This document shows positions 514-26,434 of a stretch of 32,438 nt of DNA, one piece after another. A program made the translations under genes and the position numbers. The stretch lies in the NCBI GenBank assembly GCA_017444615.1, contig JAFSWF010000064.1, positions 1 to 32,438 of the forward strand, given 5' to 3'. The DNA comes from Paludibacteraceae bacterium. Lineage in GTDB: Bacteria; Bacteroidota; Bacteroidia; Bacteroidales; Paludibacteraceae. The notes under the pieces are model-generated. The model had not been told where the DNA came from and made no database searches. It saw only the letters and a program-made list of their open reading frames with translations. Within the stretch, counting starts at the first letter, position 1; each line of letters begins with the position of its first letter.

Positions 514-1176
514 TTAGTCGCAGAGAGAGAATAAGTCTTCGCGGGGATTGACTAAGAGGACCGGAACGGGTGATTTGCGGATGGCGTGTCTTTCGGGTGG
601 TCCGAAAAGGATGTCATCCAGTCCGTAATCGCGGCTGGCGGTGAGGATGAGTAGGTCGTGTTGAAAATCTCGTTGGCGTTCGGCGGCTTCGCGTATCAGT
701 CCAAACGAGTCCTTGCGGGCTAAGACTATTTCGTAGGTAATAGGACCGGCTGCGCCTGTAAGACCGGCTTCGCCTGTAGGACCGCTTTGCTGTAAGACCG
801 TCCTTTGGACTGTAAGATCTTTTATAAGGCGTTCGTTGATTTTTTCTATGTGGGTGACGATTCGTTGGACGTTTTGGCGGGCGTGGGAACCGTAATCGTT
901 GGCTTGGAGGAGGATGATATGTGCGCCGGTTTTGCGGGCAAGATAGGTGCAAATCTCCGCTTTGTAGGTTTCTTCTTCCAACATAGAGACCGGCACTAAT
1001 AAGCGTCGTAGGGGTTGGACGTTCATGGTAGGCGTGACGAAGACATAAGGTCGTCTCTCTTCGCGACAAGCATCTAACTGCCGCTGTATGAGGCGGCGGT
1101 TATTGTCACAGGTGATTACCCTTATATCACCATTGTTTTCCAAAGGAAAACCATGTACCATTTGTTCATTTACCAT
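514..1176 (-). CDS. Universal stress protein-like (UspA family), with collagen-like insert
   Basis: Protein of about 215-220 aa. A typical Usp first strand is visible (RLLVPVSM, residues ~58-65), then a helix and the strand AHIILLQAND, and near the C-terminus DLLILTAS and SPVPVLLVNP, the usual Usp ending. The ATP-binding G-2x-G-9x-G signature is not clear, so nucleotide binding is uncertain. Residues ~131-145 are five Gly-X-Y triplets (GPT GEA GLT GAA GPI) coded by a DNA repeat (741-817), which looks like an insertion in a loop. It is third in the mutS-mltG-usp run. The start is uncertain because ATGs at 1176 and 1161 both lie inside a 7-bp tandem repeat that spans the gap to mltG. Family call is by fold pattern only. 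Confidence 0.65.
   Translation of the reverse strand: MVNEQMVHGFPLENNGDIRVITCDNNRRLIQRQLDACREERRPYVFVTPTMNVQPLRRLLVPVSMLEEETYKAEICTYLARKTGAHIILLQANDYGSHARQNVQRIVTHIEKINERLIKDLTVQRTVLQQSGPTGEAGLTGAAGPITYEIVLARKDSFGLIREAAERQRDFQHDLLILTASRDYGLDDILFGPPERHAIRKSPVPVLLVNPREDLFSLCD
741..817. repeat. In-gene array of four mini-hairpins (16-20 bp units)
   Basis: Read on the minus strand, each unit is CYTACA, a short stem-loop, then GGT (only GG after the first stem-loop). The stem-loops are GTCC-AAA-GGAC, GC-AAA-GC, GGC-GAA-GCC and GGC-GCA-GCC: the stem sequence changes between units but pairing is kept. The array is in frame within the usp-like gene and encodes Gly-X-Y triplets. Confidence 0.7.
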
Positions 1177-1237
1177 TTACCATGTACCATTTGTTCATTT
1201 ACCATTTACCATTTACCATTTACCATTTGTTCATTTA
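1151..1237. repeat. Heptamer tandem repeat spanning mltG stop and usp start
   Basis: About 12 units of a 7-bp motif, TAAATGG on the minus strand, with variants TAAATGA, ACAAATGG and TACATGG. The mltG stop codon (TGA in AAATGA) is in the first unit and the candidate usp start codons are in the last ones. Because 7 is not a multiple of 3, ATG and stop triplets occur in all three frames, so copy-number change would alter the spacing and possibly the frame of the usp start. Confidence 0.85.
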
Positions 1238-2283
1238 GACCGACTGAGGGTGTCCATGGTGTGATGATACTGAGCGGCGGCGGAAGCGTGTCCGTTGAAG
1301 GACGAGGAGAAAATGTGCGTTCCGTCGAGTTTGGGACTTGCGCACATGTAGAGGTAGTTAGTGGATGGTGAGTTGAGTACAAAATCCATCGTTTCGGGCA
1401 GCGGGCAACGAATAGGTCCGGGAGGTAATCCTCTGTTTTTGTAGGTGTTATACGGCGAATCGACGGCTAAGTGGCGATAGAGCACACGCTTTAGTTTGAA
1501 ATCGCCTACGGCGTATTTGACGGTAGGACACGCTTGCAGCGGCATGCCTTTGCGAAGACGGTTGATGTAAAGGCTGGCGATAGTAGGCATATCGCTTTTG
1601 CGGTATGTTTCACCTTCTACAATAGAGGCTAAGATAGCGACTTCAATGGGTGTTAAGCCTATGGAATCGGCTTTGTGGCGACGGGTGTCATTCCAGAAGA
1701 TTTTATACTCCCGCTCCATGCGATGGAAGAGAGCATCGGGTTTGATATTCCATAGCACTTCGTAGGTATTGGGGATGAAGAGGCACCGGCTGGTTTCCTT
1801 ATCCATTCCGAATTGCGCCATGTATTCGTTGCTATCCAGTAACTGGAAGAGGGTCTCCGTGTCCATCATGAGGTTATTGGTCACTTTTTCCGCCAGTTCG
1901 TGGGACGTGCGGGCGGAGTTGTTCCACGTGATTTTGACCGGCGTCTGATGGCCGTATTTGAGACGGTTAATTAGCTCTTTATCACCCATTTGCGCCGGAA
2001 AAGTATAGTGTCCGGGTTCGGGGTAATTGAAGAGGTACATGCGTGAGTGGAGTCGGAAATTGACGTCTGACCCGACCTCGTAATCCTCTTGTATCAGGGC
2101 CATGACCGAATCGGTGGTGGCACCCGGGTAGATGTTATAACTATGCTCCTTATCGTCCTTTGCGCGGAAGTTACTGACCTGCAAACGATAGTACTGCTCC
2201 ATGGCCACTGAAAGCCCCAGAAAGAGGAATCCAAAGACCATCGCAATGATGACGCGAACAATATATCTTTTTTTGAAACGCAT
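1231..2283 (-). CDS. mltG: Endolytic murein transglycosylase MltG (YceG-like)
   Basis: Inner-membrane enzyme that cuts nascent peptidoglycan strands and sets glycan length. The 350-aa protein has one N-terminal membrane helix (residues ~8-27, VRVIIAMVFGFLFLGLSVAM) and then a periplasmic part. The catalytic region ASIVEGETYRKSDMP carries the general acid Glu at 223, matching the E. coli IVEKET motif. INRLRKGMPLQACPTVKYA and YNTYKNRGLPPGPI are the standard family signatures. Length is normal. The gene starts 10 bases after the mutS stop and is surely cotranscribed with it. Its stop codon lies in the first unit of a heptamer repeat. Confidence 0.93.
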   Translation of the reverse strand: MRFKKRYIVRVIIAMVFGFLFLGLSVAMEQYYRLQVSNFRAKDDKEHSYNIYPGATTDSVMALIQEDYEVGSDVNFRLHSRMYLFNYPEPGHYTFPAQMGDKELINRLKYGHQTPVKITWNNSARTSHELAEKVTNNLMMDTETLFQLLDSNEYMAQFGMDKETSRCLFIPNTYEVLWNIKPDALFHRMEREYKIFWNDTRRHKADSIGLTPIEVAILASIVEGETYRKSDMPTIASLYINRLRKGMPLQACPTVKYAVGDFKLKRVLYRHLAVDSPYNTYKNRGLPPGPIRCPLPETMDFVLNSPSTNYLYMCASPKLDGTHIFSSSFNGHASAAAQYHHTMDTLSRSK

Positions 2284-2293
2284 AGATGAATCG

Positions 2294-4924
2294 TTATTTA
2301 TTGGCTCCGACGAGTTTTTTTATTTCTGACAGTTTATTGAGCGCCTCGAGTGGCGTTAAGTTGTTGATATCCAGCGACTGCACTTCGTCTCGGATCTGCT
2401 CCAAGACGGGGTCGTCCAATTGGAAGAAGCTCAGTTGCATGCCGTCTCGCATCTCTCCTAAGTGCGCTTTGGCGTTGGCTTTGGCGTTGGTGGAGGCTGC
2501 GCCTTCCAACTCCGCTAAGATTTTATTGGCGCGTTCGATGATAGAAGCGGGCATGCCTGCCAGTTTAGCCACATGAATACCGAAGCTGTGTTCCGAGCCT
2601 CCGCGCACCAGTTTGCGCAGGAAAATGACCTTGCCGTTCACCTCTTTGACGGAGACGTTGTAATTGCGAATACGGTCGAAAGTTTTCTCCATTTCGTTCA
2701 GTTCGTGGTAGTGGGTGGCAAAGAGCGTTTTGGCATGGCCGCGATTCTCGTGGATATATTCGACGATGGCCCACGCGATAGAGATGCCGTCGTAGGTGGA
2801 AGTGCCTCGTCCGAGTTCGTCAAAGAGCACTAAGCTGCGTTCGCTGAGGTTATTCAAGATAGAGGCGGCTTCGTTCATCTCCACCATGAAGGTTGATTCG
2901 CCGAGAGAGATGTTATCGCTGGCACCGACGCGGGTGAAGATCTTATCCACGACGCCGATGGAAGCGCTTTCTGCGGGTACGAACGAACCCATTTGCGCGA
3001 GTAGCACAATGAGCGCTGTTTGACGCAGTAAGGCAGACTTTCCTGCCATGTTAGGACCGGTGATGATGATGATCTGTTGGCCGTTGTTGTCTAAGAGCAC
3101 ATCGTTGGCTATATATTGCTCACCTATAGGCAGTTGCTGTTCGATAACAGGGTGTCTGCCTTGCCGAATATCGATGACAAGACTGTCGTTGATATCCGGG
3201 CACACGTACTTATATTCCGCGGCAATGGTGGCGAAGGAGAGGAGGCAGTCGAGTTGCGCGAGCACGCGGGCGTTGAGTTGGAGTTGGGGTACCCATTCGG
3301 TGATGGCTAATATCAACTCCTGATAGAGCCGGTTTTCGATGATCTGAATGCGTTCTTCTGCGGTGGTGATTTTTTGCTCGTAGGTCTTGAGTTCCTCGGT
3401 GATGTACCGCTCCGCATTGACCAGCGTCTGTTTGCGGATCCACTCCGGAGGCACTTGGTCTTTGTAGGTGTTGCGGACCTCGAGGTAATAGCCGAAGACG
3501 TTATTATAGCCTATTTTGAGGCTGCTGATGCCGGTTCGTTCTATCTCGCGTTGCTGGATCTGCAGCAGGTAATCCTTGCCGTCCGACTGAATGGCACGCA
3601 GTTCATCCAGTTCGGTATCCACTCCTCGTGCGATGATGTTGGGTCGTCCTTGTACCACAGGCGGGTCAGGCACTATCTCCCGCTCAATGCGGCTTCGCAT
3701 CGATGAGCAGGCATCCAGTTGATCGCCGAGGAGGCCTAGATAGGCGTTGGCATTGGCTTTGGTATTGGCTTCTTCGCATAGGCGTTTAATAGGAGCTATA
3801 ACTCGCAGAGCTACACCGAGTTGAACCATTTCGCGCGGACCGATACGACCTGTGGAGATCTTGCCCACAATGCGCTCTAAGTCTCCCACTTGTTGCAGGG
3901 CTTCGCTCAGGTTCTCTCGGGCTTCGGGATAGCGGAAAAAATGCTCCACGACCGTTTGTCGATTGCGGATGGGGCGCACTTCTTTTAGCGGGAAAGAGAG
4001 CCAGCGGTGCAACATGCGCCCGCCCATAGGCGTGAGCGTGCGATCAATTATATCATAGAGCGTGCGGCTCTCTTCCGTCTGTCCGCCGATTAGCTCTAAG
4101 TTGCGAATGGTGAAGCGGTCCAACCATACGTATTTATCTTCCTCAATGCGGCTAAGGTGCTGAATATGACCGGTTTGCAGATGTTGTGTCATGTCGAGGT
4201 ATAAGATGATACCTCCTGCAGCCGTCACACCGGCTGGCATCGGTTCGAGTCCAAATCCCTTGAGCGAACTGACGCCCCATAGTTTCTGCAATCGTTCGCG
4301 CGCCGTCGATTCGACCAGCATCCAGTCTTCGAGTTCGAACGTAAAATACTTGTTTCCGAACAGGTTCTCCATCTCCGTTTTGCGGCCGCGTAGTAGTAAC
4401 ACTTCTTTGGGCGCAAAATTAGTCAGTAACTTGTCGATGTAATCGCTGTCGCCTTGTCCCGCCAAGAACTCACCGGTGGAGATATCTAAAAATGCGACGC
4501 CTATTTGGTGTTTTTCGAAATGCAGACACGCCACCCAGTTGTTCTCTTTCTGCGTGAGTGTGGTGTCCGAATAACTGACACCCGGAGTGACCAATTCCGT
4601 CACGCCGCGTTTGACCAGTTTCTTGGTTAGTTTGGGGTCCTCTAACTGGTCACAGATAGCTACGCGCAGCCCTGCACGTACCAACTTAGGCAGGTAGGTG
4701 TCCAAGGCATGGAAGGGGAAGCCCGCCATTTCTACGGCCTGCGCGGCGGCACTACCGCCGTTGGAGCGGTGGGTGAGGGTGATATTCAGTATCTTGCTTG
4801 CGCGAACCGCGTCCTCTGCGTATGTCTCGTAGAAGTCTCCGCATCGAAACAACAGCATCGCATCGGGATACTGTGTTTTGATGTCGCGAAACTGCTTCAT
4901 CATCGGTGTTAATTCGTTTGCCAT
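2294..4924 (-). CDS. mutS: DNA mismatch repair protein MutS
   Basis: Recognises mispaired bases and, with ATP, recruits MutL. The 876-aa protein has the mismatch-reading Phe-X-Glu near the N-terminus (GDFYE, F31 and E33), Walker A GPNMAGKS (residues ~623-630), and Walker B with signature [16 protein letters not shown]. The ATG at 4924 ([12 protein letters not shown]) is chosen over a TTG at 4936 because it fits the usual MutS start; the promoter just upstream allows either. Two low-complexity inserts made of Asn/Ala/Lys are visible, [13 protein letters not shown] (~385-397) and [13 protein letters not shown] (~808-821), both coded by GCCAAN hexamers. All catalytic motifs are intact, so the protein should work. 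First gene of the mutS-mltG-usp operon. Confidence 0.97.
2463..2500. repeat. GCCAAN hexamer repeat inside mutS (C-terminal)
   Basis: On the minus strand this reads as GCCAAM hexamers coding TNAKANAKA, between the ATPase core and the C-terminal segment of MutS. Nearly the same hexamers occur at 3739-3772 and in thiL at 20369-20396. Confidence 0.65.
3739..3772. repeat. GCCAAN hexamer repeat inside mutS (core domain)
   Basis: Second hexamer block in mutS, coding ANTKANANA in a loop of the central lever/core region. In frame and without effect on flanking conserved sequence. Confidence 0.6.
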
Positions 4925-4946
4925 CAGCTCATACAATTTTGCGGTG

Positions 4947-4978
4947 CAAAATTACAAAAAATTATCGACATACGCAAG
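4947..4978 (-). promoter_or_regulatory. mutS operon promoter
   Basis: Minus strand CTTG (4978-4975), 20-base spacer, TAATTTTG (4954-4947). The transcription start should fall near 4940, giving a leader of about 15 bases to the chosen mutS ATG. Confidence 0.75.
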
Positions 4979-5040
4979 GGTAAAGTGTGTTTTTTGAGGA
5001 AAAAGCAGAAAATACGGATAGTAGGGATTCTGTATAACAC

Positions 5041-5067
5041 AAAAAAGAGCCCGTTAAAGGCTCTTTT
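5041..5067 (-). terminator. Terminator of tRNA-Glu
   Basis: Minus strand AAAAGAGCC, 7-base loop, GGCTCTTTT, then two more T: a 9-bp stem with a T tail, starting 4 bases past the tRNA 3' end. Confidence 0.85.
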
Positions 5068-5070
5068 GAG

Positions 5071-5143: not shown

Positions 5144-5221
5144 CGGAAGTGTCCCCGTCAATCGGGGAAACTGGCCTCCGCCGGAAGGGGCATTATAGTG
5201 CTCTTCGGACGAAAGCGACTG

Positions 5222-5253
5222 CAAAGGTACTGCTTTTTTTTGATATGACCAAA
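5222..5253 (-). promoter_or_regulatory. tRNA-Glu promoter
   Basis: Minus strand TTTG (5253-5250), 20-base spacer, TACCTTTG (5229-5222). The expected leader to the tRNA 5' end is about 70 bases. The 40-base block is nearly the same as that at 321-360. Confidence 0.75.
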
Positions 5254-10440: not shown

Positions 10441-10476
10441 CTCTCAACTCTCAACTCTAAACTCTCAACTCTAAAC
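10441..10476. repeat. Heptamer repeat at the gcvT stop codon
   Basis: Five units of AACTCTM (7 bp). On the minus strand the gcvT stop TAG lies in the first unit (GTTTAGAGTTGAGAG). Confidence 0.75.
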
Positions 10477-11586: not shown

Positions 11587-11645
11587 GTCGGTATCCCGTG
11601 ATTCCGAGATCCCGGTATTCCGAATAATTCTTAATTCTTAATTGC
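11587..11645. repeat. Heptamer and octamer repeats at the pepT stop codon
   Basis: On the minus strand the pepT end AATTAA is continued as AATTAAGAATTAAGAATTA (7-bp units), followed by an alternating 8-bp series, CGGAATAC, CGGGATCT, CGGAATCA, CGGGATAC. It fills almost all of the pepT-gcvT gap. Confidence 0.75.
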
Positions 11646-12884: not shown

Positions 12885-12983
12885 ATTATTTACGATTTTA
12901 TGATTTACGATTTTACGATTTTACGATTTATTGACGATTGAGTTTTATTTACGATTTATTTTTTTATTGACGATTTATAGCGG
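12885..12983. repeat. TTTACGA-type repeats upstream of pepT
   Basis: Seven- and eight-bp units (ATTTACG, ATTTTACG) right in front of the pepT start codon, then two longer spaced copies of TTGACGATT. No other feature is visible in this gap. Confidence 0.7.
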
Positions 12984-13002: not shown

Positions 13003-13050
13003 CAATGGAACAATCAATCGTCTAATTGTCAATCGTCCAATCGTCAATTA
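13003..13050. repeat. GACGATTG-type repeats at the lipoprotein stop codon
   Basis: On the minus strand, directly after the TAA of the lipoprotein gene, units TTGACGAT, TGGACGAT, TGACAAT, TAGACGAT follow each other (7-8 bp). Confidence 0.7.
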
Positions 13051-13643: not shown

Positions 13644-14627
13644 TTAAACTACAACATCCATTTTCTCAAAATCCTTTTGGACGAAAGCGATGATATTATC
13701 GCACACATTCTCGCACATAGCGATTCGCCCTTCCCACGTTCCTGTTCCTGTATGCGGACTGAGTACCACATTCGGCAAATGCAATAGTGCCTCGCTTATC
13801 TGCGGTTCGAACTCATACACATCTAGTGCCGCTCCGGCGATGATTCCGCTCTGCAACGCTTCCACCAACGCCTCTTCATCTACGTGCGCGCCGCGCGCGG
13901 TGTTAATAAGGTATGCACTACGTTTCATCATCCCCAACTCCGGCTTACCGATGAGATGATGCACCTCCGGCGTGTAGGGCAAGTTCAAACTCACAAAATC
14001 GCTATCTTGCAGCAAGGTCTGAAAATCTACATACTCCGCTTGCCGAATAACATCCTCTCTCCACTTTTCACTCTCCACTTCTCTCATCTCTCCACTCTCC
14101 ACTCTCAACTTCTTCCTGTTATGATAAATAATCTTCATCCCACTGGCGATAGCTCGTCGCGCCAACGCCTGACCAATTCGTCCCATGCCTACTATGCCCA
14201 AGGTCTTGCCATACAACGAATGACTTAAGTTCCGCATTACCCCAAATCCCTCAAACGAACTGATGGCTGAATGCTGACTTCTGACGGCTCTATCCAACTC
14301 ACTCACGCGCCGCGCGACATCGATCATCAGCGCAAAAGCTAACTCTGCCGTAGGTTCCACCACTGGCTGAGGCGTGTTCGTCACACGGATACCACGTTCG
14401 CGACAAGCCTCTAAGTCGATGTTGTTGTATCCTGCCCCAAAATTAGCAATCAATCGCAACTGAGGCATTGCCTCAATCAGTTCCCGTCCCACACGATAAT
14501 CGAACGTACTTACCAGAATCTCCGCCTCGGAGAATTCACCAATCTCCAATCTCAAATCTCCAATGCCTTTTGAAAAAAGGCGCCGAAATCCTTCTTCCGG
14601 TAATATGGTCGTAAATGCTACTTTCAC
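13644..14627 (-). CDS. D-isomer specific 2-hydroxyacid dehydrogenase
   Basis: NAD(P)-dependent reductase of 2-oxo acids (family of D-lactate, glycerate and phosphoglycerate dehydrogenases). The ~327-aa protein has the GxGxxG loop GIVGMGRIGQALARRA, the catalytic Arg in INTARGAHVDEEAL, the Glu region DVYEFEPQISEALL and the catalytic His in LSPHTGTGTWEGR. GTG at 14627 (KVAFTTILPEEGF) is chosen because the family starts there and the -7 promoter box lies 12 bases upstream, so the upstream frame is not transcribed. The messenger would have almost no leader. Residues ~180-197 (RVESGEMREVESEKWRE) and the GDLRLEIGE segment near residue 25 are coded by ~7-bp repeats and look inserted. The substrate is not determinable. 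Confidence 0.88.
   Translation of the reverse strand: MKVAFTTILPEEGFRRLFSKGIGDLRLEIGEFSEAEILVSTFDYRVGRELIEAMPQLRLIANFGAGYNNIDLEACRERGIRVTNTPQPVVEPTAELAFALMIDVARRVSELDRAVRSQHSAISSFEGFGVMRNLSHSLYGKTLGIVGMGRIGQALARRAIASGMKIIYHNRKKLRVESGEMREVESEKWREDVIRQAEYVDFQTLLQDSDFVSLNLPYTPEVHHLIGKPELGMMKRSAYLINTARGAHVDEEALVEALQSGIIAGAALDVYEFEPQISEALLHLPNVVLSPHTGTGTWEGRIAMCENVCDNIIAFVQKDFEKMDVVV
14063..14109. repeat. ACTCTCC-type heptamers inside the dehydrogenase gene
   Basis: Irregular 7-8 bp units (CTCTCCA, CTCTCAT) coding VESGEMREVESEKW just after the cofactor-binding beta strand (IIYHNRKK). The related block AATCTCC at 14538-14562 lies near the gene start. Confidence 0.6.
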
Positions 14628-14638
14628 CTTTGCGACTG

Positions 14639-14670
14639 CAAAGGTACAACAAATATTTGAATTATGCAAG
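14639..14670 (-). promoter_or_regulatory. Promoter of dehydrogenase-lipoprotein operon
   Basis: Minus strand CTTG (14670-14667), 20-base spacer, TACCTTTG (14646-14639). The expected start point is only about 5 bases before the GTG start codon, so translation may be near leaderless. Confidence 0.7.
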
Positions 14671-14926: not shown

Positions 14927-17215
14927 ATGAAAAATTTTTCCAAAATTAATCGCGCCCTTGCGGCAGGGAAAAGATTTTTATCTTTGTTCTGCGCTCTCTC
15001 GATCATCTTTAGCGTCAGCGCAGCTCCGCAATTATCCCAGCGAGTAGTTAGCTCTCAGAAAATCGAGGTAAAACAATCTCCTCGTTTGGAAAAGGTTGCA
15101 CAAGTTGCAAAGACTGCAAATCGTGCTCCTAAAGCTAAGACTGCTGAAGGTTTGGAGTCCGGAACGTTCTACACTGTAGGTGGAACTTTCTATGCAGGAA
15201 CATCAAGTGGATGGGTAGATGCTACCTCTGACATGTCGTCCATTGAGGTGACGGTAAATGGAGATAGCGTGTTTATCGCTGGCTTGGCGTATTGGTTCAA
15301 GGAAGGTGCTCTCGCTGGCACTATCGATGGCAATACGCTCACTTTCCCGTGCCAACTTATTGGAACAGATCAGTATGGTGATGAGTTCCTTATTGGTTCT
15401 AATGACGCATCAACAGTAACTGACATTGTGTTTACATGGGATCAAGAGGCTCAGACGCTGACCGCAAGCACGGCATTGATTATTGAAAGCGGCGCTATTG
15501 ATGCTATTTCTGCTTATTGTTATTGGTCTAATGCTGTATTTAGTACAACGGAGCCGGAAGCTCCTGAATTAGTTGTTCTTCCGGAAGGTGCTACCGTGGT
15601 TGAGTACACCATGGACTTCGTGGATGGGAGTGGTAACGCCAGCGCTAAATCTGTGAATGTAGCAGTGGTGGAGAATGAGGTGTTCTTCCAAGGAATGAGT
15701 AACTACCTCCCCGAAGCTTGGGTAGTAGGAACAAAGGAAGGTAACGCTGTTACGTTTGCTGCAAATCAGTATGTAGGCGACTACCAAGTAGGGTCTTCTT
15801 ATTTCTTCTATAATGGAGAGACCGTATTTACTTATGATGAAGAGGCTGATACATATTCTGCATCTGGTCAAGTATGTGGTGTCTTGGCGAACCAGTACTA
15901 TGATGGTAATTATGATGACCCTGTACTGAGCAAAGCAAAAGAAATTGACCTTGACAACCCGACAGAGGTAGCTATTGTTGAAGTACTAAGCTGCAAGTAT
16001 GATGCAAGCTATGGAGACGTTATTTATAAATTAGCTAATGCAACTAGCGACACCATCTTCCAGTTCGATATCTATCTTGAAGAAGGTCAAACAGATGTTG
16101 AGTTAGGTCAAACCTACACATTTGAGAATATGGAGACGAGTGCAACGTACTCGTTTGTACAAGCCGACGAATCTAAACTGGGATTCAAGGCCGCTTCGTT
16201 CGTAAAGACGGCTATCGGCGAAACTGATTCAATTCGTATTGAGGCTACTGTGGTAGACGGTGCCAATAATGTATACCATTTTGCGTTTGCAGGAGTTATT
16301 GAGGTGCCGACACCGGTAGTTGTGCCGGAAGATCTTGAGACTGCAGCTTACTTGTTCAAAGGCACAGATACTTATTTCAACGAAGAGGAAAAGAAGTTTA
16401 TCCAAGTTGGCTTTGATGCGGATACCGTTTATCTGCAAGGTTTGAGTTCCTATGTTCCTGAAGCTTGGATAAAAGGTGTAATTGCAACTGATGGTACAGT
16501 AACTCTTGCTCCTTGCTATTTAGGTGTATATAGCTCGTTGTTTGGCAGTACTGAACTCTCTTTCGCAGGAGGTGAGTTGCTTTACGATGCAGAAGCAAAC
16601 AAATTCACGGCTGATGAGTTAACTACCGTGGATGAGGATGGCTCTGAATGGGACGAATATGCTGATATTACCATTACTCTCTTCGTAGAGGTAGCTGCAA
16701 CACCCGCAGATCCTGAGTTTACCAGCTTTGCCTTCGCAGATACTAATTATCCCAATGTGAAATTCAATATTCCTTTGGAGGGAACCGAAGGCGAAGATTT
16801 GAATCCTGAAAAATTGAGCTATATCTTCTTTGTTGAGAAAGAGGGTGAAGTTGAAGAATTGGTTCTCACCACCGATCTCTACACCGAATTGGAAGAGGAT
16901 TTGACTGAGATTCCATACACCTTCACTGATAATTGGGATATTTATAGTTATGTACTCTATCTGAATCAAAGTGAAGAAGAAGTACGTAGCTGGGATAAAC
17001 TGGGCTTGCAGTCCATCTATCGTGGCCTTGACGAAGAGCATAAATCCAACATCGTTTGGTTCGATGTGAAGGCTTACTGGGAAGAGGTTGATGGCGAGCA
17101 AGGCATTGAGAACATTGTTCTTACCGAGAAAGTACAGAAAGTAGTGGTTGACGGTGCCGTTTACGTAATCCGTGACAACAAACTCTACAACATCCTTGGT
17201 ACACAAGTTCGTTAA
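14927..17215 (+). CDS. Secreted beta-repeat surface protein 1
   Basis: A 762-aa exported protein. A long signal peptide (residues ~1-33, hydrophobic SLFCALSIIFSVSAA) is followed by a basic, disordered stretch to ~75. Three copies of a ~115-aa beta module follow (around 77-200, 225-345 and 475-600), each with a core like VFFQGMSNYLPEAWVVGT, then TFxxxxYxG and a TYDEEADT-type strand. Between copies 2 and 3 is a different module (FQFDIYLEEG, GQTYTFENM, AASFVKT, IRIEATVVDG) that recurs several times in the next gene. The C-terminus (VVVDGAVYVIRDNKLYNILG then TQVR) resembles tails seen on Bacteroidales exported proteins and may be a sorting or anchoring signal. Highly acidic. Ligand and function are unknown. 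Confidence 0.8.
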   Translation: MKNFSKINRALAAGKRFLSLFCALSIIFSVSAAPQLSQRVVSSQKIEVKQSPRLEKVAQVAKTANRAPKAKTAEGLESGTFYTVGGTFYAGTSSGWVDATSDMSSIEVTVNGDSVFIAGLAYWFKEGALAGTIDGNTLTFPCQLIGTDQYGDEFLIGSNDASTVTDIVFTWDQEAQTLTASTALIIESGAIDAISAYCYWSNAVFSTTEPEAPELVVLPEGATVVEYTMDFVDGSGNASAKSVNVAVVENEVFFQGMSNYLPEAWVVGTKEGNAVTFAANQYVGDYQVGSSYFFYNGETVFTYDEEADTYSASGQVCGVLANQYYDGNYDDPVLSKAKEIDLDNPTEVAIVEVLSCKYDASYGDVIYKLANATSDTIFQFDIYLEEGQTDVELGQTYTFENMETSATYSFVQADESKLGFKAASFVKTAIGETDSIRIEATVVDGANNVYHFAFAGVIEVPTPVVVPEDLETAAYLFKGTDTYFNEEEKKFIQVGFDADTVYLQGLSSYVPEAWIKGVIATDGTVTLAPCYLGVYSSLFGSTELSFAGGELLYDAEANKFTADELTTVDEDGSEWDEYADITITLFVEVAATPADPEFTSFAFADTNYPNVKFNIPLEGTEGEDLNPEKLSYIFFVEKEGEVEELVLTTDLYTELEEDLTEIPYTFTDNWDIYSYVLYLNQSEEEVRSWDKLGLQSIYRGLDEEHKSNIVWFDVKAYWEEVDGEQGIENIVLTEKVQKVVVDGAVYVIRDNKLYNILGTQVR

Positions 17216-17216: not shown

Positions 17217-17252
17217 CTAAATGCACAATGCACAATGAACAATGAACAAGGC
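17217..17252. repeat. AATGMAC heptamers after secreted protein 1
   Basis: Two units AATGCAC and two units AATGAAC, starting 5 bases after the TAA stop. A further short series AATTGTT (17333-17355) lies before the terminator. Confidence 0.75.
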
Positions 17253-17359
17253 GTCCTAGCGGGTTTGGTGTAACGTTTAGTATCTGTACGGACTCTATTT
17301 GTTGGAGCCAAACCTACTACAAACCCTTTGTAAATTGTTAATTGTTAATTGATAATTGG

Positions 17360-20235: not shown

Positions 20236-20241
20236 TCTAAT

Positions 20242-21309
20242 ATGGCAAGAACAGAGATTTCTACACTCGGTGAGTTCGGACTCATCCGCCATCTGACCAA
20301 GGACCTCAAAGCGGTACAACCCTCCACTTGTAAGGCCGTTGGTGACGACTGCGCGGTGATGGATTTTACCAACGCCAAGGCCAAAGCCAATGCAGACCAA
20401 CGCGTCCTCATGACCACCGATATGCTGCTGGAAGGCATCCATTTCAACCTCGAATATGTGCCCCTTAAGCACCTCGGTTACAAAGCGGCGGTGGTTAATT
20501 TCTCGGACATCTATGCGATGAACGGTACACCCACACAAATCACCGTCTCTCTTGGCGTAAGCAGTAAGTTCTCCCTCGAGGACATCGAAGCACTCTATTC
20601 AGGTATTCGCCTTGCCTGCGAACGTTACCACGTGGACATCGTAGGTGGTGACACCTGCGCGTCAATGAACGGTCTGACCATCTCCATCACTTGTCTTGGC
20701 GTGGCCAAAGAGAAAGACATCGTCTATCGTAACGGTGCCAAACTGAACGACTTAATCTGCGTCTCCGGCAATCTTGGCACAGCCTATATGGGCTTGCAAC
20801 TGCTCGAACGAGAGCGAATGGTTGCACAATCTTATCCGAATGGCAATGCGCCTGCGGAGGCTCTCCGCTTTGAAGGCAAAGAATACTTGCTCGAACGCCA
20901 ACTCAAACCCGAAGCGCGGAGAGATATCCTCGAAGCGCTGCATAAAGCCGGCGTCAAGCCCACGGCGATGATGGATGTGAGCGATGGCCTCTCCTCCGAA
21001 CTGCTGCATATATGCTCGCAGTCGGGCGTAGGTTGTTGCGTCTATGAGGATAAGCTGCCGATTGATTTTGAGGCAGCCGCTTTGGCGGAAGAGATGAACC
21101 TCAATATCGTCACCTGTGCACTCAATGGCGGTGAGGACTACGAACTGCTCTTTACCTGCTCGCTCGATGACTACGAGAAACTGATTCCCATTGACGACCT
21201 ATACATCATCGGTCATATCACCAAACCGGAATATGGCTGTAACCTCATCGGCCGTAACGGCGAAGAGATTACCCTCAAAGCCCAAGGCTGGAATGCCTTC
21301 CAAGATTGA
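20242..21309 (+). CDS. thiL: Thiamine-monophosphate kinase ThiL
   Basis: Phosphorylates thiamine phosphate to thiamine diphosphate with ATP. The 355-aa protein has all family motifs: GDDCAVM, TTDMLLEGIHF, NFSDIYAMNGTP, VGGDTCAS, MMDVSDGLSSEL and NGGEDYELLF. Starts 6 bases after the secreted protein stop, so it is very likely on the same transcript, an unexpected pairing. Residues ~43-54 (TNAKAKANADQR) are coded by the same GCCAAN-type hexamers as the two inserts in mutS. No thiamine riboswitch is visible upstream. Confidence 0.95.
   Translation: MARTEISTLGEFGLIRHLTKDLKAVQPSTCKAVGDDCAVMDFTNAKAKANADQRVLMTTDMLLEGIHFNLEYVPLKHLGYKAAVVNFSDIYAMNGTPTQITVSLGVSSKFSLEDIEALYSGIRLACERYHVDIVGGDTCASMNGLTISITCLGVAKEKDIVYRNGAKLNDLICVSGNLGTAYMGLQLLERERMVAQSYPNGNAPAEALRFEGKEYLLERQLKPEARRDILEALHKAGVKPTAMMDVSDGLSSELLHICSQSGVGCCVYEDKLPIDFEAAALAEEMNLNIVTCALNGGEDYELLFTCSLDDYEKLIPIDDLYIIGHITKPEYGCNLIGRNGEEITLKAQGWNAFQD
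20369..20396. repeat. GCCAAN hexamers inside thiL
   Basis: Coding repeat CCAACGCCAAGGCCAAAGCC, close in sequence to the minus-strand repeat in mutS at 2463-2500. It sits between two conserved ThiL motifs, GDDCAVM and TTDMLLEG. Confidence 0.6.
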
Positions 21310-22004
21310 AAAACGTCGCAATCATATTAGCAGGAGGGATGGGAAGCAGAGTAGGAGGGAATACTCCCAAACAGCTTCTTCCATTAGCTGACGGACGCTC
21401 GGTGTTAGAACACACCGTCGATGCGTTCGAGCAAGCGCCATGCATCAAAGAGATAGCTATTGTCATGCACCCCGACTGGATGGACGAAGCCAAACGCATC
21501 TGCGAACAGAACAACTGGCAGAAAGTGCTGCAAATCATCCCTGGTGGCAGCGAACGCTGGGAATCTTCCTGGCACGCCATTCAGGCCTATAGCGACTTTT
21601 CTCCTTCCCTTCAGGGGAGGACGGGAGAGGCTTGCTCCCTTTGGTTCCACGATTGCGCACGACCGTTCGTTAGTCAGCGTATCTTGGCAGACATAGCAGC
21701 GGCCTTGGAGAAGCACGACGCAGTGACGGTGGCTGTGCCCGTGACGGATACGCTGTATAGAGTGAATAGTGAAGAGGGAATAGTGAAGAGTATCCCTAAT
21801 CGAGCAGAATTCATGCGTGCGCAGACACCGCAGGCGTTCCGCTTTGAGGTGGTGTTTGAGGCGTATGCGAAAGCGCTCGCAGATGATGAGTTAGCGGCTA
21901 CCGATGACGCCGGTATAGTGCGCAAGTATGCACCTTCGCACAAGATATATATTGTGCAAGGCGAAGAAGCGAACCGCAAAATAACGTATAAGGAGGATCT
22001 ATGA
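21306..22004 (+). CDS. ispD: IspD/TarI-family cytidylyltransferase
   Basis: Transfers CMP from CTP to a sugar-alcohol phosphate. The 232-aa protein has the CTP loop LAGGMGSRVGGNTPKQLLPL, the second motif FHDCARPFV, VPVTDTLYRV, RAQTPQAFRFEV, DDAGIVRKY and the end ITYKEDL. The TTG start overlaps the thiL stop by 4 bases. Most likely it makes CDP-methylerythritol for isoprenoids; a TarI-like CDP-ribitol role is possible, since a second, clearly polyol-type paralogue lies downstream. Residues ~98-111 (SPSLQGRTGEACSL) are coded by a REP-like palindrome inserted before the FHDCARPF motif. Confidence 0.75.
   Translation: MKNVAIILAGGMGSRVGGNTPKQLLPLADGRSVLEHTVDAFEQAPCIKEIAIVMHPDWMDEAKRICEQNNWQKVLQIIPGGSERWESSWHAIQAYSDFSPSLQGRTGEACSLWFHDCARPFVSQRILADIAAALEKHDAVTVAVPVTDTLYRVNSEEGIVKSIPNRAEFMRAQTPQAFRFEVVFEAYAKALADDELAATDDAGIVRKYAPSHKIYIVQGEEANRKITYKEDL
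21601..21633. repeat. REP-like palindrome inside ispD
   Basis: CTCCTTCCCTTCAGGGGAGG followed by ACGGGAGAGGCTT. The core CCTTCCCTT/AGGGGAGG is a near palindrome. Two more copies, in opposite orientations, lie inside kdsD (23881-23958). Confidence 0.65.
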
Positions 22005-23155
22005 AAATCATTCTATTAGGCACGGCATATCCTTATCGAGGAGGTTTGGCGACGTTCAATGAACGGCTCGCACGGCAGTTTGTGTCCGAAGGACACGAGG
22101 TGGAAGTGTGGACGTTCACCCTCCAATACCCCTCTTTCTTGTTCCCCGGCAAGACGCAATACTCGACGGAAGAAGCGCCGAAGGGTTTGGTCATTCGCCG
22201 CGAGCTGAACTCCTGCAATCCCTTCAACTGGCTACGCGTCGGACGGGCAGTTATGAAAGCTGCACCGGAGATGCTTATTTGTTGCTACTGGATGGCGTTC
22301 TTTGCTCCTGCCTACGGACTGATCTCACGCATAACTAAGCGAAACGGCAAAACGAAATGCATAGCCCTCGTGCATAATATGTTGCCGCATGAACCATCCA
22401 TTCTCGATAAACTCTTTGCACCCTATTTTGTGAAGTCCCAGGACGGCTTTGTGGCATTGAGCGAAAGCGTCCTCAAAGATATTGAAAAAATAGAAATCAC
22501 CAATCACCAATCACCAATCACCAATAAGCCGAAGGCTTTCTCTCCGCATCCTATCTATGACCATTACGGTGAGCGAATGACGAAGAAAGAGGCGTGCAAG
22601 GCATTGGGATTGTCGGTTGAGAAGCAGTATATGTTGTTCTTTGGGTTGGTGAGAGCGTATAAGGGTTTAGATCTGCTGCTGGATGCCTTCGACCAGATCA
22701 AAGAGCAGTTGCCGGATTTGCAACTCATCATCGCAGGAGAGTTCTACGAGGATGAAGATAAATACCGCAAGCAGATAGAAGCCAACGGCCTGACTGAGCG
22801 CGTAGTACTGCGCAATGAGTTTATTCCTGACGCTGATTTGAGAAAGTATTTTGGAGTAGCAGATCTGATCGTTCAGCCCTATAAGAGTGCTACGCAAAGC
22901 GGCGTGACACAAGTGGCATTCCATTTCGAGAAACCGATGTTGGTGACGAATGTAGGTGGATTAGGCGAGATCGTGCATGATCATCAAATGGGATATGCCT
23001 GCGAACCGAAGGCGGAGGCTATCGCTGAGGCTATACGCGATTATTTCACGAATAACAGGCAAGAGGCTTATACGGCATATCTGCAAAAAGAGAAAACGCG
23101 ATACGCATGGGATAAGATGACAAAAGCGTTTAGTACGGTGAAAGGTGAAAATTGA
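22001..23155 (+). CDS. Glycosyltransferase, GT4 family (GT-B fold)
   Basis: Transfers a sugar from a nucleotide donor to a growing glycan; cytoplasmic side. The 384-aa protein has the N-terminal Gly-rich loop (GTAYPYRGGLATFNERLAR), the C-terminal domain start FGLVRAYKGLDLLLDAF, LIIAGEFYED, the acidic patch region VADLIVQPYKSATQSGV and NVGGLGEIVHD. ATG overlaps the ispD stop by 4 bases. Residues ~165-175 (EITNHQSPITN) are an in-frame repeat between the two domains, identical to one in kdsD. Position beside kdsD/kdsC suggests an LPS core or O-glycan role; donor and acceptor unknown. Confidence 0.88.
   Translation: MKIILLGTAYPYRGGLATFNERLARQFVSEGHEVEVWTFTLQYPSFLFPGKTQYSTEEAPKGLVIRRELNSCNPFNWLRVGRAVMKAAPEMLICCYWMAFFAPAYGLISRITKRNGKTKCIALVHNMLPHEPSILDKLFAPYFVKSQDGFVALSESVLKDIEKIEITNHQSPITNKPKAFSPHPIYDHYGERMTKKEACKALGLSVEKQYMLFFGLVRAYKGLDLLLDAFDQIKEQLPDLQLIIAGEFYEDEDKYRKQIEANGLTERVVLRNEFIPDADLRKYFGVADLIVQPYKSATQSGVTQVAFHFEKPMLVTNVGGLGEIVHDHQMGYACEPKAEAIAEAIRDYFTNNRQEAYTAYLQKEKTRYAWDKMTKAFSTVKGEN
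22493..22525. repeat. AATCACC heptamers inside the glycosyltransferase
   Basis: 33 bp, four units of the heptamer, coding EITNHQSPITN. The same 33 bases in the same frame occur in kdsD at 24143-24175. Confidence 0.9.
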
Positions 23156-23167
23156 AAGGTGAAAGGT
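23134..23167. repeat. GGTGAAA repeats across the glycosyltransferase stop
   Basis: Units GGTGAAA, GGTGAAA, ATTGAAA, GGTGAAA, GG, with the TGA stop in the third unit. The kdsD start follows directly. Confidence 0.75.
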
Positions 23168-24238
23168 ATGAATTCACAACAAATTATACAACGGGCGAAG
23201 GAGTGTTTGGCGCTCGAGGCTCAGGCAATACAATCCCTTATCCCGCGGCTGGATGAGACCTTCATGCACGCCGTGGAGATGATTCGCGACTGCAAAGGAA
23301 AGATCGTAGTAACCGGAGTGGGCAAAAGCGGACATATCGGTTCGAAGATTGCCGCTACGCTGGCTTCAACTGGCACACCGGCGTTCTTCTTGAACCCGCT
23401 GGATGCGTATCATGGAGACTTGGGAATGCTCTCCTCGCAGGACATAGTGCTGGCGATCTCTTACTCCGGCGCAACAGAAGAACTCGTACGGTTCTTGCCT
23501 ATTATTCAGGCGAAGAAAATTCCTATTATCGGCATGTCGTCCAAGGAAGATTCACCTTTGGCACGTTGCTCGCAGGTTCATCTCAATATCGCAGTGGAGT
23601 CTGAAGCCGACCCGCTCAATCTTGTGCCTACGGCTTCCACCACCGCTACGTTGGCCTTAGGAGATGCGCTGGCGTGCGCTTTGATGGAAGCGAGTCATTT
23701 TCAACCTACCGACTTCGCGCAGTTACACCCGGGAGGAGATTTGGGAAAGAAACTATCCGCCAAAGTGTCAGAGGTGATGTTTACGGAGAACTTACCATTC
23801 CTCACGCCACAGATGCCGATGAGCGAAGCAATAGAAATCGTGACAAAGGGTACGTTAGGGATAGGGATAGTGGTAAAAGAAGCCTCTCCTAAATCCTCCC
23901 CTAAAGGGAAGGACTTGCGCAAACTCCCCTCCCTTCTGGAAGGGGATGGGGGTAGGCTACTTGGTATCATCACCGATGGCGATATTCGGCGTGCAATGCA
24001 ACGGTTAGGCAAAGAATTCTTTGAGGCCCAAGTGGCAGATATTATGTCGCGGAATCCGAAGACGATTAGTAAGGACGCAAAGATTGCTGAGGCTGGCGAG
24101 AAGATGAACCATCACTCCATCCATACACTCATTGTGGTAGAGGAAATCACCAATCACCAATCACCAATCACCAATCCCCGCGTAGTGGGCGTCGTCGACT
24201 CCTTCTCTTGCTTGCCCGGTACACGGTTTTATCATTAA
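23168..24238 (+). CDS. kdsD: D-arabinose 5-phosphate isomerase (KdsD/KpsF)
   Basis: Converts ribulose 5-phosphate to arabinose 5-phosphate, the first step to KDO of LPS. The ~356-aa protein has a SIS domain (GVGKSGHIGSKIAATLASTG, residues ~50-69; NPLDAYHGDLGM; AISYSGATEEL; ESEADPLNLVPTAST) and two CBS domains (~200-356). ATG 23168 is preferred over the in-frame GTG at 23159. CBS 1 carries a ~27-aa insert (EASPKSSPKGKDLRKL, PSLLEGDGGR) coded by an inverted pair of REP-like palindromes, and CBS 2 an 11-aa insert EITNHQSPITN from heptamers. The SIS active site is intact, so catalysis should be kept; CBS regulation may be altered. Confidence 0.93.
   Translation: MNSQQIIQRAKECLALEAQAIQSLIPRLDETFMHAVEMIRDCKGKIVVTGVGKSGHIGSKIAATLASTGTPAFFLNPLDAYHGDLGMLSSQDIVLAISYSGATEELVRFLPIIQAKKIPIIGMSSKEDSPLARCSQVHLNIAVESEADPLNLVPTASTTATLALGDALACALMEASHFQPTDFAQLHPGGDLGKKLSAKVSEVMFTENLPFLTPQMPMSEAIEIVTKGTLGIGIVVKEASPKSSPKGKDLRKLPSLLEGDGGRLLGIITDGDIRRAMQRLGKEFFEAQVADIMSRNPKTISKDAKIAEAGEKMNHHSIHTLIVVEEITNHQSPITNPRVVGVVDSFSCLPGTRFYH
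23881..23958. repeat. Inverted pair of REP-like elements inside kdsD
   Basis: A reverse copy (23881-23916, AGCCTCTCC then CCCCTAAAGGGAAGGACTT) and a forward copy (23921-23958, CTCCCCTCCCTTCTGGAAGG then GGATGGGGGTAGGCT) of the element seen in ispD. Tail-to-tail pairing would give a long hairpin in the kdsD message. In frame, in the first CBS domain. Confidence 0.7.
24143..24175. repeat. AATCACC heptamers inside kdsD
   Basis: Identical to 22493-22525 over 33 bases and in the same frame. It falls in a turn of the second CBS domain, between HTLIVVE and RVVGVVDSF. Confidence 0.9.
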
Positions 24239-24241
24239 TAA

Positions 24242-24262
24242 AGGTTATAGGTTACAGGCTAT
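24242..24262. repeat. AGGTTAY heptamers between kdsD and kdsC
   Basis: Three units, AGGTTAT, AGGTTAC, AGGCTAT, filling the gap; the kdsC ATG starts in the last unit. Confidence 0.6.
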
Positions 24263-24755
24263 GGTGAAGTTATTTTTGACGGATGTAGATGGCTGTCTGA
24301 CGGATGGGGGAATGTACTATACGGCAGAAGGCGATGTGATGAAGCGTTTCTGCGTGTATGACGGTATGGGTATGGTGTGCCTGCAGCAAGCAGGTATCCC
24401 TTGCGGAATACTGACGAGCGAGAATAGCGCAATCGTAAAGGCGCGCGCAGAGAAACTAAAATTGCAATACTTATACCTTGGTGTCGGCAGTAAGGTCAAT
24501 CCGAATTGCCTGACCAAGCTCCAAGCAGCGCAAGAGATCTGCGCCCAACTAGGTATCTCCCTCTCTGAGGTGTGCTTTGTAGGCGATGACATCAACGACC
24601 TCGAACTCCTTTCCTCCGTCGGCTATCCTTGTTGTCCTCCCAATGCCCGTCCCGAGGTGTTGTCTATACAAGGAATTAAGGTTCTCCATACCCCAGGCGG
24701 ACAAGGTGCCATCCGCGAGATTTGCGATGAGATACTTTTGGAAATGGTTCACTAA
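24261..24755 (+). CDS. kdsC: KDO-8-phosphate phosphatase-like HAD hydrolase (KdsC)
   Basis: Small C0-type HAD phosphatase, predicted to remove the phosphate from KDO 8-phosphate. The 164-aa length fits KdsC. HAD motif I is DVDGCLTDGG, motif II is ILTSENS, and motif III/IV is CFVGDDINDLELL; TPGGQGAIREICDEIL is the typical C-terminus. Close relatives act on acylneuraminate 9-phosphate, but the gene directly follows kdsD, so KDO is the better guess. kdsA and kdsB are not in the window. Confidence 0.85.
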   Translation: MVKLFLTDVDGCLTDGGMYYTAEGDVMKRFCVYDGMGMVCLQQAGIPCGILTSENSAIVKARAEKLKLQYLYLGVGSKVNPNCLTKLQAAQEICAQLGISLSEVCFVGDDINDLELLSSVGYPCCPPNARPEVLSIQGIKVLHTPGGQGAIREICDEILLEMVH

Positions 24756-24773
24756 TTAACCGAATGAAACGAA

Positions 24774-26012
24774 ATGAATGAAGAATTAGAAATAGAAAAG
24801 TCACGGATGGTGAAGTCACATGACATACATTTGGATGCGGAGTACGCGGATTGGATTGCTGAGTTGAAACATCGGTATCGTTCTGCGCAAGTAAAAGCTG
24901 CGGTTCGGGTGAACACGGAAAAATTGCGCTATAACTGGGAACTTGGACGTGACTTGGTGCAGAAGAAAGCTGAAGAGCGATGGGGTGCCGGGGTGGTTGA
25001 GCAGGTGAGCCTGGACATGCAGCGGGAGTTCCCAGATGCAGATGGGTTCTCAACGACCAATCTATGGTATATGAAGAAGTGGTATCTGTTTTATAACGAT
25101 GCAGATACAAAACTGCAACGAGCCGTTGCAGAAATTGAAGATGAAAAATTCCAACGACCCGTTGGAGAATTTCAAGGTACTGAAAATGAGCAAGATATAA
25201 AACTCCAACGACCCGTTGGAGAAATTGAAGATGAGAAAATGCACCAACTTGGTCCAGAATTTCCTGCAATCTTTGGTCTCGTTCCATGGGGACAGCATAT
25301 AGAAATTATAACAAGGTGTAATTCTATTGAGGAGGCAATCTATTATGTAGGTCAAACGATAGATCGAGGTTTGAGCAGACCTGCGTTGATTAACTGCATC
25401 AAGGCGAACCTGTATGAGCATCAGGGGAAGATAGTTAATAACTTTGCGGAGCATATGCCGGAACTGCAGAGCAAGTTGGTGCAAGAGGTATTCAAGGAGA
25501 ACTATGACTTTGGCTTTGCGACAGTGAAGCATGAGATCTATGACGAGCATGAGTTGGAAGAGGCATTGAGTAATAGCGTGACAAGTCTGCTGCTGGAGTT
25601 AGGAACAGGATTTGCGTTTATCGGAAGGCAGAAGCAGTTGATCACCGGTGATTCGACGAGTAAGATAGATCTGCTGTTCTACCATATTCGTCTGCGTTGC
25701 TACGTAGTGTGCGAGTTAAAAGCAAAGCCGTTCGAGCCGGAGTTTGCAGGGAAATTGAATTTCTATGTGAATGCAGTGGATGACTTAGTGAAGCATGAGG
25801 ATGATAATCCGACGATTGGTTTGCTGATTTGTTCGGATATGAACAAGGCGAAGGTGCAATGGTCGTTCCGCGGCATCTGTACGCCGATGGGTGTGGCGAC
25901 ATACAATAACGTGCGGATTCAGGAGATGCTACCGACGCAAGAACAGTTGCAGGAACGGATGGAGTTGCTGCAACGTGAGATGCGGACGACCAAACGGTTG
26001 ATGAAAGGATAA
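24774..26012 (+). CDS. YhcG/DUF1016-type PDDEXK nuclease
   Basis: A 412-aa protein of the YhcG family. The N-terminal DUF1016_N domain (~23-110, LRYNWELGRDLVQKKAEERW) leads into a helical part with PWGQHIEIITRC; the C-terminal PDDEXK domain has LLLELGTGFAFIGRQ, Asp299 in SKIDLLFYHIRLRCYVVCEL and Glu314-x-Lys316 in CELK, the expected metal-binding residues. The linker (~113-155) has repeats of LQRPVGEIEDEK coded by palindromic DNA. Family members are often linked to restriction-modification or mobile DNA and predicted to act on DNA; the role is not established. Here it sits alone inside an LPS gene run. Confidence 0.88.
   Translation: MNEELEIEKSRMVKSHDIHLDAEYADWIAELKHRYRSAQVKAAVRVNTEKLRYNWELGRDLVQKKAEERWGAGVVEQVSLDMQREFPDADGFSTTNLWYMKKWYLFYNDADTKLQRAVAEIEDEKFQRPVGEFQGTENEQDIKLQRPVGEIEDEKMHQLGPEFPAIFGLVPWGQHIEIITRCNSIEEAIYYVGQTIDRGLSRPALINCIKANLYEHQGKIVNNFAEHMPELQSKLVQEVFKENYDFGFATVKHEIYDEHELEEALSNSVTSLLLELGTGFAFIGRQKQLITGDSTSKIDLLFYHIRLRCYVVCELKAKPFEPEFAGKLNFYVNAVDDLVKHEDDNPTIGLLICSDMNKAKVQWSFRGICTPMGVATYNNVRIQEMLPTQEQLQERMELLQREMRTTKRLMKG
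25111..25240. repeat. Three palindromes within a direct repeat in the yhcG-like gene
   Basis: CTGCAACGAGCCGTTGCAG (25113-25131), CCAACGACCCGTTGG (25151-25165) and CTCCAACGACCCGTTGGAG (25203-25221) are perfect hairpins with a 3-base loop. The first and third lie in a nearly identical direct repeat of about 37 bp (25111-25147 and 25201-25237), each followed by GAAATTGAAGATGA. The first pair of arms differs from the others by a compensating C/G swap. Confidence 0.85.
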
Positions 26013-26018
26013 TAAATT

Positions 26019-26408
26019 ATGGCAGATGTAGAATTAAGTAACGGAATAGATCATCTTCACGGCAAGTTGGCAAGTAGGGATGACATCTATTATCGCACAC
26101 GAAATGGAAAACAATTCGCGGTGCAGATGGTCAATCCTCGGCAGAAATTCTCTCCCAAAGAGAAAACCCTCCATGCAGGCTTCGGACAAATAGCCAAATT
26201 AACGTCCCGCATCGCCAAAGACCCCGCACTCGCTGCGCCATACATGCCGGACTTCGAAGCGCAGAAAGCCAATGGAGGACAAACGAGTTTATACCAATAT
26301 CTCCTCACCCGCTTCCTCCGCGAAGCAAAGTCCGACCGCGCCGCCAAAATCGCCGAACTCACAAAACTCACAGAACTCACAGCGCACCAAGACGAGTCAA
26401 AGGCATAA
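26019..26408 (+). CDS. Small protein of unknown function
   Basis: A 129-aa cytoplasmic protein starting 6 bases after the nuclease gene, so probably translated with it. The N-terminal part (MADVELSNGIDHLHGKLASR, DDIYYRTRNGKQFAVQMVNP) looks beta-rich; the rest is helical and basic. The C-terminus AELTKLTELTAHQ is coded by 9-bp repeats (AACTCACAR). No signal peptide or membrane segment. I do not recognise the family; it could be an accessory or control protein of the nuclease, or an unrelated passenger. Confidence 0.65.
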   Translation: MADVELSNGIDHLHGKLASRDDIYYRTRNGKQFAVQMVNPRQKFSPKEKTLHAGFGQIAKLTSRIAKDPALAAPYMPDFEAQKANGGQTSLYQYLLTRFLREAKSDRAAKIAELTKLTELTAHQDESKA

Positions 26409-26434
26409 CATAAGCATAACATAAGCATAACATA
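26351..26434. repeat. 9-bp and 11-bp repeats around the stop of the small gene
   Basis: Inside the gene, AACTCACAR units (26356-26383). From the stop codon on, CATAACATAAG (11 bp) about three times, with the TAA stop in the first unit. Confidence 0.75.

Follow-up and report, generated by a model that had tools for sequence, protein, structure and literature searches.

Why do short tandem repeats whose period is not a multiple of three gather at the ends of genes? The question is raised by a stretch of 32,438 nucleotides from a Paludibacteraceae bacterium (GenBank assembly GCA_017444615.1, contig JAFSWF010000064.1, positions 1 to 32,438; hereafter the window), in which a first-pass annotation had described tandem repeats of 7–11 bp at the stop codons of eight genes. 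The window is contig 44 in a 72-contig draft genome of 1.6 Mb with an estimated completeness of 76%, and this draft is related to rumen and gut Paludibacteraceae. The repeat arrays occurred far above chance, reused the same words, and, at a given gene end, differed between close relatives through gain, loss, or replacement. We consider it probable that they form a genome-wide, fast-turnover class of heptad (partly octamer) repeats, located where genes tolerate them.

Arrays were surveyed in 592 kb, consisting of the window and 40 further stretches, with genes called by a simple custom caller, repeats detected without gaps, and dinucleotide shuffles as controls. The gene caller made some starts too short and missed small genes, such as that at 26019–26408. 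Arrays with periods of 7, 8, 9, 11, and 14 numbered 110, 22, 17, 19, and 14, respectively, with few others; nearly all were shorter than 70 bp, and one was 205 bp long. In the shuffled sequences, period-7 arrays appeared at 0.33 per pass in gaps and 0 in genes. Among the 110 period-7 arrays, 40 were coding, 24 mixed, and 46 noncoding; for E. coli, PMC4692102 describes repeats with units over 3 nt as under-represented in open reading frames (ORFs).

The repeats had been characterized as unrelated in sequence, which did not hold genome-wide. The 124 arrays of period 7 or 14 fell into 70 cyclic classes with 224 coincident pairs, whereas heptads drawn from the gaps gave a mean of 15 and a maximum of 29 (200 draws). 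The top words were TAATTGA, GGTGATT (AATCACC on the other strand), AAATGGT, CTGACGG, GTTGAGA, TTGAAAA, GGTGAAA, and CTGATGG. The arrays are dispersed heptads far above chance with words shared by unlinked loci, and in both respects they resemble, in the broad sense, short tandemly repeated repetitive (STRR) sequences. Period-7 arrays had a density of about 186 per Mb in the surveyed genome; the corresponding values were 26 to 103 for four congeners and 0 to 42 for six genomes from other families of the order. Arrays were anchored at 17%, 2 to 7%, and 0 to 2% of stops in these three groups, respectively (comparison genomes sampled at 72 to 183 kb apiece). Three exact AATCACC units were present in 3 of 296 genomes of the phylum and three exact TAATTGA units in 12, the own genome included in both cases (16 and 23 matches in it, respectively); the reversed-word controls were present in 6 genomes and 1 genome, respectively. 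A phylum-wide lexicon was rejected, as outside the own genome AATCACC was not commoner than its reversed control.

An array was scored as lying at a stop when its start fell at −21 to +10 of the stop codon, and the expectation was obtained by random placement within its own gap. As the first-pass annotation had anticipated, array starts (periods 7, 8, 11, and 14) were enriched at stops, with 70 of 404 stops and 34 of 402 starts occupied. Of the 82 arrays of period 7, 8, or 14 that lie in co-directional gaps, 60 were at the stop, whereas 39.0 (standard deviation 3.7) were expected. The anchoring is real, yet about 1.5-fold; the excess is modest because the gaps are short. At gcvT loci, which are orthologous and not independent, 43 of 66 arrays were at the stop versus 34.8 expected (P = 0.0075). 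Gaps of at least 80 bp held 17 arrays at the stop versus 7.6 expected with called starts, and with longest-ORF starts all gaps together gave 61 versus 49.1 expected (P = 0.001). Period-8 arrays in the four congeners did anchor at stops (6 of 8 versus 2.2 expected).

Coverage by arrays was calculated for gaps with at least 80 bp outside arrays. The 30 bp immediately past the stop had a coverage of 8 to 11%, compared with 2 to 4% for the 30 bp immediately preceding the start and 0.3 to 2.4% for positions more than 40 bp from the stop. A second peak of 6 to 11% was observed at 70 to 120 bp before the start; few arrays underlie these profiles. In net gaps of at least 100 bp, six centres of period-7/14 arrays lay within 40 bp of the stop, three within 40 bp of the start, and nine between, corresponding to 2.0, 1.0, and 0.5 per kb, respectively.

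The window itself was searched with Tandem Repeats Finder (TRF) at score 30, and its proteins were compared with Pfam and judged against the curated cut-offs. Pfam matches backed mltG (YceG), gcvT, the M20 peptidase, GT4, kdsD (SIS and CBS domains), ispD, and others, while the sole match of the 194-residue "lipoprotein" was under the cut-off and the two large "secreted" ORFs had none. All eight arrays reported at gene ends were readable in place, and seven of them were in the TRF list; the exception, three imperfect AGGTTAY units read from the sequence (24242–24264, plus strand), lies past the kdsD stop (24236–24238) and runs into the ATG of the next gene (24261). On the minus strand, TRF and sequence reading placed a TAAATGG array after the mltG stop (1231–1233; 1150–1233) and an array of TTGACGAT, with period 8/15, after the stop of the lipoprotein-like gene (13048–13050; 13014–13050), and relatives' loci also supported the GTTKAGA array (10441–10476) that contains the gcvT stop (10471–10473). 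On the plus strand, an AATGCAC/AATGAAC array (17220–17249; TRF and sequence) begins 4 bp past the stop of the "secreted protein 1" ORF (17213–17215). The stop codon lay inside or abutted the repeat at mltG, gcvT, pepT, GT4, and the small gene; in the survey sample, the entire stop codon was inside the array in 31 cases versus 24.5 expected (P = 0.048), little above chance.

Only 6 of the 15 arrays of period 7, 8, 11, or 14 in the window were at stops, including that of the small gene, which is conserved though missed by the gene caller; five were within coding sequences (CDSs) and four elsewhere in gaps. Arrays away from stops and detected by TRF include a TTGTTAA array after secreted protein 1 and before the next ORF (17328–17358, plus strand), further arrays of period 8, 15, and 17–19 in the gap between the lipoprotein gene and pepT, upstream of pepT (12889–12978, minus strand), a period-14 array of two heptads in the ispD CDS (21759–21790, plus strand), and two heptad arrays in the ORF at 13644–14669 (14080–14110, given by TRF as 14053–14110, and 14539–14564; minus strand).

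The orientation of period-7/14 arrays was counted as sense-stop-rich to antisense-stop-rich, with ties in brackets and excluded from tests. Arrays overlapping the stop were divided 26:3 (4), those starting 0–10 bp past it 11:2 (0), and the remaining arrays in co-directional gaps 7:7 (4); stop-anchored and other gap arrays differed significantly (Fisher P = 0.006). Inside CDSs the ratio was 11:28 (5) (binomial P = 0.009). Antisense stops numbered 8.7 per 100 bp in the 44 CDS arrays versus 3.7 in random segments of the same genes; richness in stops on one strand is thus a property of the words irrespective of location. In one array inside a gene (L128, 8408–8456), the word, read by eye, shifted stepwise from GGTGAAG to AGCTAAT, as if units had been copied with errors.

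Array lengths were compared with both flanks anchored in relatives, giving 69 comparisons from 119 arrays, with sites reused. For period-7/14 arrays within CDSs, a non-zero difference was found in 12 of 16 comparisons, and all 12 differences, which stem from about two sites, were multiples of 3. At one site the array measured 40 bp in L017, 61 bp in L037, and 82 bp in L030, a ladder with steps of 21 bp, i.e., three heptads. Gap arrays of the same periods differed in 30 of 33 comparisons, and 9 of the 30 differences were multiples of 3. Array length is thus held in frame within genes and free in gaps, where many differences look like array replacement. A presence/absence case was observed at L050 (1078–1123), where a TAATTGG array of several units corresponds to a single TAATT in L049.

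Alignment showed that the AATCACC arrays in the GT4 CDS (22495–22525, plus strand) and the kdsD CDS (24145–24176, plus strand) are in-frame insertions, each coding an ITNHQSPITN loop that aligned relatives lacked. The kdsD of genome G002 carried a two-unit version, and the GT4 of G003 (L224) had the same peptide at a different site from the window's; the GT4 loops of L216 and L224 gave no hit in the pattern search and were read from the alignment. Relative to most aligned sequences, the CBS region of the window's kdsD was also longer by about 20 residues, owing to a further insertion at 23856–23905 that contains short repeats.

Arrays also supplied gene ends. The protein of pepT, a member of the M20 peptidase family, ends, for example, in KKA or KRVK elsewhere and in KKAIKN in the window, where an ATTAAGA array codes the last residues (IKN) and the stop (11625–11643, minus strand; TRF, Pfam, and relatives); among the loci listed, array-coded ends were also found in L007, L011, L012, L029, and L030. 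The GT4 gene likewise takes its final residues (VKGEN) and its stop codon from a GGTGAAA array (23137–23167, plus strand; sequence and alignment). The stops of gcvT and kdsD were unmoved.

The gcvT stop was compared across 37 loci, i.e., the window and 36 of 80 retained relatives, the 80 being 94% to 71% identical and titled uncultured Bacteroidales or Paludibacteraceae, mainly from rumen or gut. Array words were labelled by eye, and the gcvT tree was built without the last 30 bp, with 12 of its 34 inner branches well supported. The protein end was the same throughout, while the sequence between the stop and the following start codon varied: 11 loci had no array, and 26 had one of 12 words. 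The tree required 20 word changes (least possible 12), with GTTKAGA, GTGTAAG, and TAATTGA changing four, four, and three times, respectively, of which well-supported branches force 3, 3, and 2. Different words were found in the close pairs L030/L037 and L031/L036, and the arrays of L019, L020, and L023 differed by one 8-bp unit.

These observations can be brought together as follows. New units may arise by slipped-strand events or short tandem duplication, and some dispersal or convergence would bring the same words to unlinked places; selection would then decide which arrays survive at which site. Most arrays are stop-richer on one strand, and neither 7 nor 8 is divisible by 3, so that a few units in that orientation can stop all frames. 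It had already been pointed out for this window that non-triplet periods place stops in every frame, which is correct and was stated for TAACTGA by MacGregor (2015, PMC4679880), and we think that this property is the key to array placement. The stop-rich orientation would be best tolerated at or past the end of an ORF, and where it reached the last codons it could supply the last residues and the stop; the stop-poor orientation would be compatible with a position within an ORF, forming an inserted loop that changes in length without loss of frame. Gathering at stops would then mainly reflect where such DNA can live, together with short gaps and avoidance of start regions, and need no function of its own. 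Placement by tolerance would account for the bias between strands, for the clustering at stops, for stops that moved as well as those that did not, and for the frame-keeping loops. Among the origins suggested earlier, a trace of slippage or copying is the best supported, as arrays appear, vanish, and swap words beside the fixed gcvT stop, but its restriction to gene ends fails, as arrays also lie inside CDSs and in mid-gap.

Several results weigh against placement by tolerance of a slippage-born repeat. With longest-ORF starts, the excess in gaps of at least 80 bp was not significant (5 versus 3.3 expected, P = 0.21), and period-7/14 arrays of the four congeners were not anchored (8 of 22 versus 7.1 expected). 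The sense-stop richness just past stops is not required by constraint (P = 0.10 versus other gaps), 11 of the 39 untied CDS arrays were sense-stop-rich, and the frame-keeping differences, as noted, come from about two sites. Whole-unit steps were not in excess: multiples of 7 made up 4 of the 30 gap differences and 5 of 28 indels within period-7 arrays, close to the share of 1 in 7 that chance alone would give. These blind counts fail to back whole-unit slippage as a full account, and the clean unit steps are examples, i.e., 14 and 21 bp between L030 and L037 (2 of 10 realigned sites) and the 8 bp of L019, L020, and L023. Local slippage also does not explain the recurrence of words at unlinked loci. 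Finally, the gcvT words were partly clustered, as shuffled labels needed 24.5 changes and fell as low as 20 in 0 of 200 shuffles; therefore there is some inheritance, and turnover is fast, not total.

A selected translational device, in which all-frame stops catch read-through and ATG triplets aid reinitiation at the next gene, is an unlikely explanation, although the stop excess and the strong sense-stop orientation at and just past stops are what it would produce. The placement of 90 of 107 gap arrays in co-directional gaps fits it too, but 311 of 386 gaps are co-directional anyway. The 11 orthologous gcvT stops without an array and the change of words between close relatives speak against the fail-safe or reinitiation roles proposed earlier, and we rejected the fail-safe as the main account on the same ground; the low share of array-bearing stops in the congeners and the presence of the same words within CDSs argue in the same direction.

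Arrival of the arrays as small mobile units, by STRR-like dispersal or templated synthesis, followed by decay, would explain the recurring lexicon, the exchange of one word for another at a given stop among close relatives, and gap differences that are not tied to whole units. It would also fit the AATCACC arrays, whose three sites are spread over two genes and two species and whose lengths are 31 to 33 bp, but the two-unit kdsD version of G002 fits growth in place, and we regard this origin as rather improbable.

It is unlikely, too, that each array copies its own gene end by tandem duplication of the last codon and the stop, as the inclusion of stop codons in the repeats had suggested. By eye, several species do pair a GTT-TAG end of gcvT with a GTTTAGA array and a GTG-TAA end with a GTGTAAG array, and the last 6 nt of gcvT recurred exactly downstream in 6 of the 37 loci, compared with a mean of 1.5 after swapping ends and gaps. 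When swaps were restricted to loci with the same stop codon, the mean rose to 3.7 (P = 0.037), and with one mismatch allowed the recurrence was not significant (P = 0.64 and 0.10); these P values are optimistic because the loci are related. Own-end copying as the sole origin was rejected, being weak once the stop codon is matched; identical words also recur across many unlinked sites, genes included.

A dedicated, error-prone copying activity that writes 7-nt units into open chromosome sites, in a templated or transposition-like manner and from a lexicon that is limited and drifts, seems less probable still; if it existed, a gene end could swap a whole heptad word between sister species with the stop codon in place. 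An assembly or binning artefact is hardly credible, for although the relatives' loci are drafts, nearly all metagenome-assembled by title, nearly all arrays are probably shorter than reads, and similar arrays have consistent flanks across many separate assemblies.

The 11-bp array at the conserved small gene, which had been grouped with the heptads, is a separate dispersed element, and period-11 arrays in the survey had no stop preference (1 of 8 versus 1.3 expected). TRF and genome searches placed three copies of GCATAACATAA at the stop of this gene (26403–26435, plus strand). Arrays of GCATAACATAA were found at three places in the own genome and also in G002 and G004 among 41 congeneric genomes searched, the own included, and in all three species an array adjoins the end of the orthologous small gene. 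By eye, the sequence past the small-gene array appears to continue the 11-bp rhythm. Another 11-bp unit, TATCCTATGGG, forms a 43-bp block of four units that is identical at window positions 116–158, L110 (49–91), L114 (13213–13255), and L118 (19370–19412), with similar blocks at L111 (116–158), L121 (14189–14214), and L133 (1088–1131); it is near a contig end in several cases and is perhaps a multi-copy element that breaks assembly.

An Rfam search of the window at the gathering threshold returned no known RNA family at the arrays and, elsewhere, just a FopS small RNA and a tRNA. The match to the Bacteroidetes FopS family (244–317, minus strand) overlaps a 17-bp repeat at 203–258. A single ORF at 26684–28060 combines IspD-like and short-chain dehydrogenase domains, a second ispD being located at 21306–22004.

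Dispersed short tandem heptamers are known from cyanobacteria as STRR sequences, with the words CCCCAGT, TTGGTCA, and CAACAGT (STRR1–3); none of these words formed an array in our 592 kb. According to PMC4692102, heptad repeats, although noted in several bacteria, had no detailed literature as a class at that time, and the passage of PMC4060949 that a word match returned does not mention heptads. Geobacter metallireducens has a GC-rich family of 49 related four-heptad elements between and within genes (PMC2700814); the arrays described here likewise consist of heptads between and within genes but draw on a multi-word lexicon without GGGACCG. The GGGNATC heptads of Xanthomonas and Nostoc are described as abundant, mainly intergenic, and quadruplex-forming, with a preference for four units, and most of those downstream of ORFs are on the coding strand at no more than 50 bp from the stop, which some of them overlap (Rehm 2015, PMC4692102). 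Our arrays are similarly abundant near or over stops; the G-rich classes GGGAATC and GGGGAYT were absent among the arrays in 592 kb.

A further parallel is the TAACTGA direct repeat of marine Beggiatoaceae, also reported in five Bacteroidetes including Paludibacter propionicigenes (MacGregor 2015, PMC4679880). As described there, a forward repeat introduces stops in all three frames, which places such repeats at ORF ends, 13 of them overlapping the stop, while reverse repeats lie inside ORFs. The arrays reported here share the scattering of heptamers over the genome and the strand sorting between ORF ends and interiors. TAACTGA is, however, one word placed mostly directly upstream of start codons (PMC4679880), whereas many words occur here, with an excess at stops over starts, and TAACTGA itself gave no array of this class and no exact double unit in 592 kb. 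In phase-variation (contingency) repeats, changes of unit number switch a gene on or off within a strain; the comparisons made here are between relatives, and the CDS length changes seen in them (12 of 12, about two sites) keep the frame. Thus, single-word heptads that overlap stops and sort by strand have already been described (MacGregor 2015, PMC4679880; Rehm 2015, PMC4692102), and within a limited literature search we did not find a many-word lexicon with swapping at one stop in print. What the present genus adds to these systems is many words combined with fast gain, loss, and swapping at an orthologous stop, and therefore the origin of heptad repeats becomes open to study by comparing strains. 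The same genus illustrates the sorting of a non-triplet repeat by strand, with the stop-bearing orientation at gene ends and the stop-poor one, with frame-keeping lengths, within genes, and illustrates how repeat DNA can rewrite C-termini.

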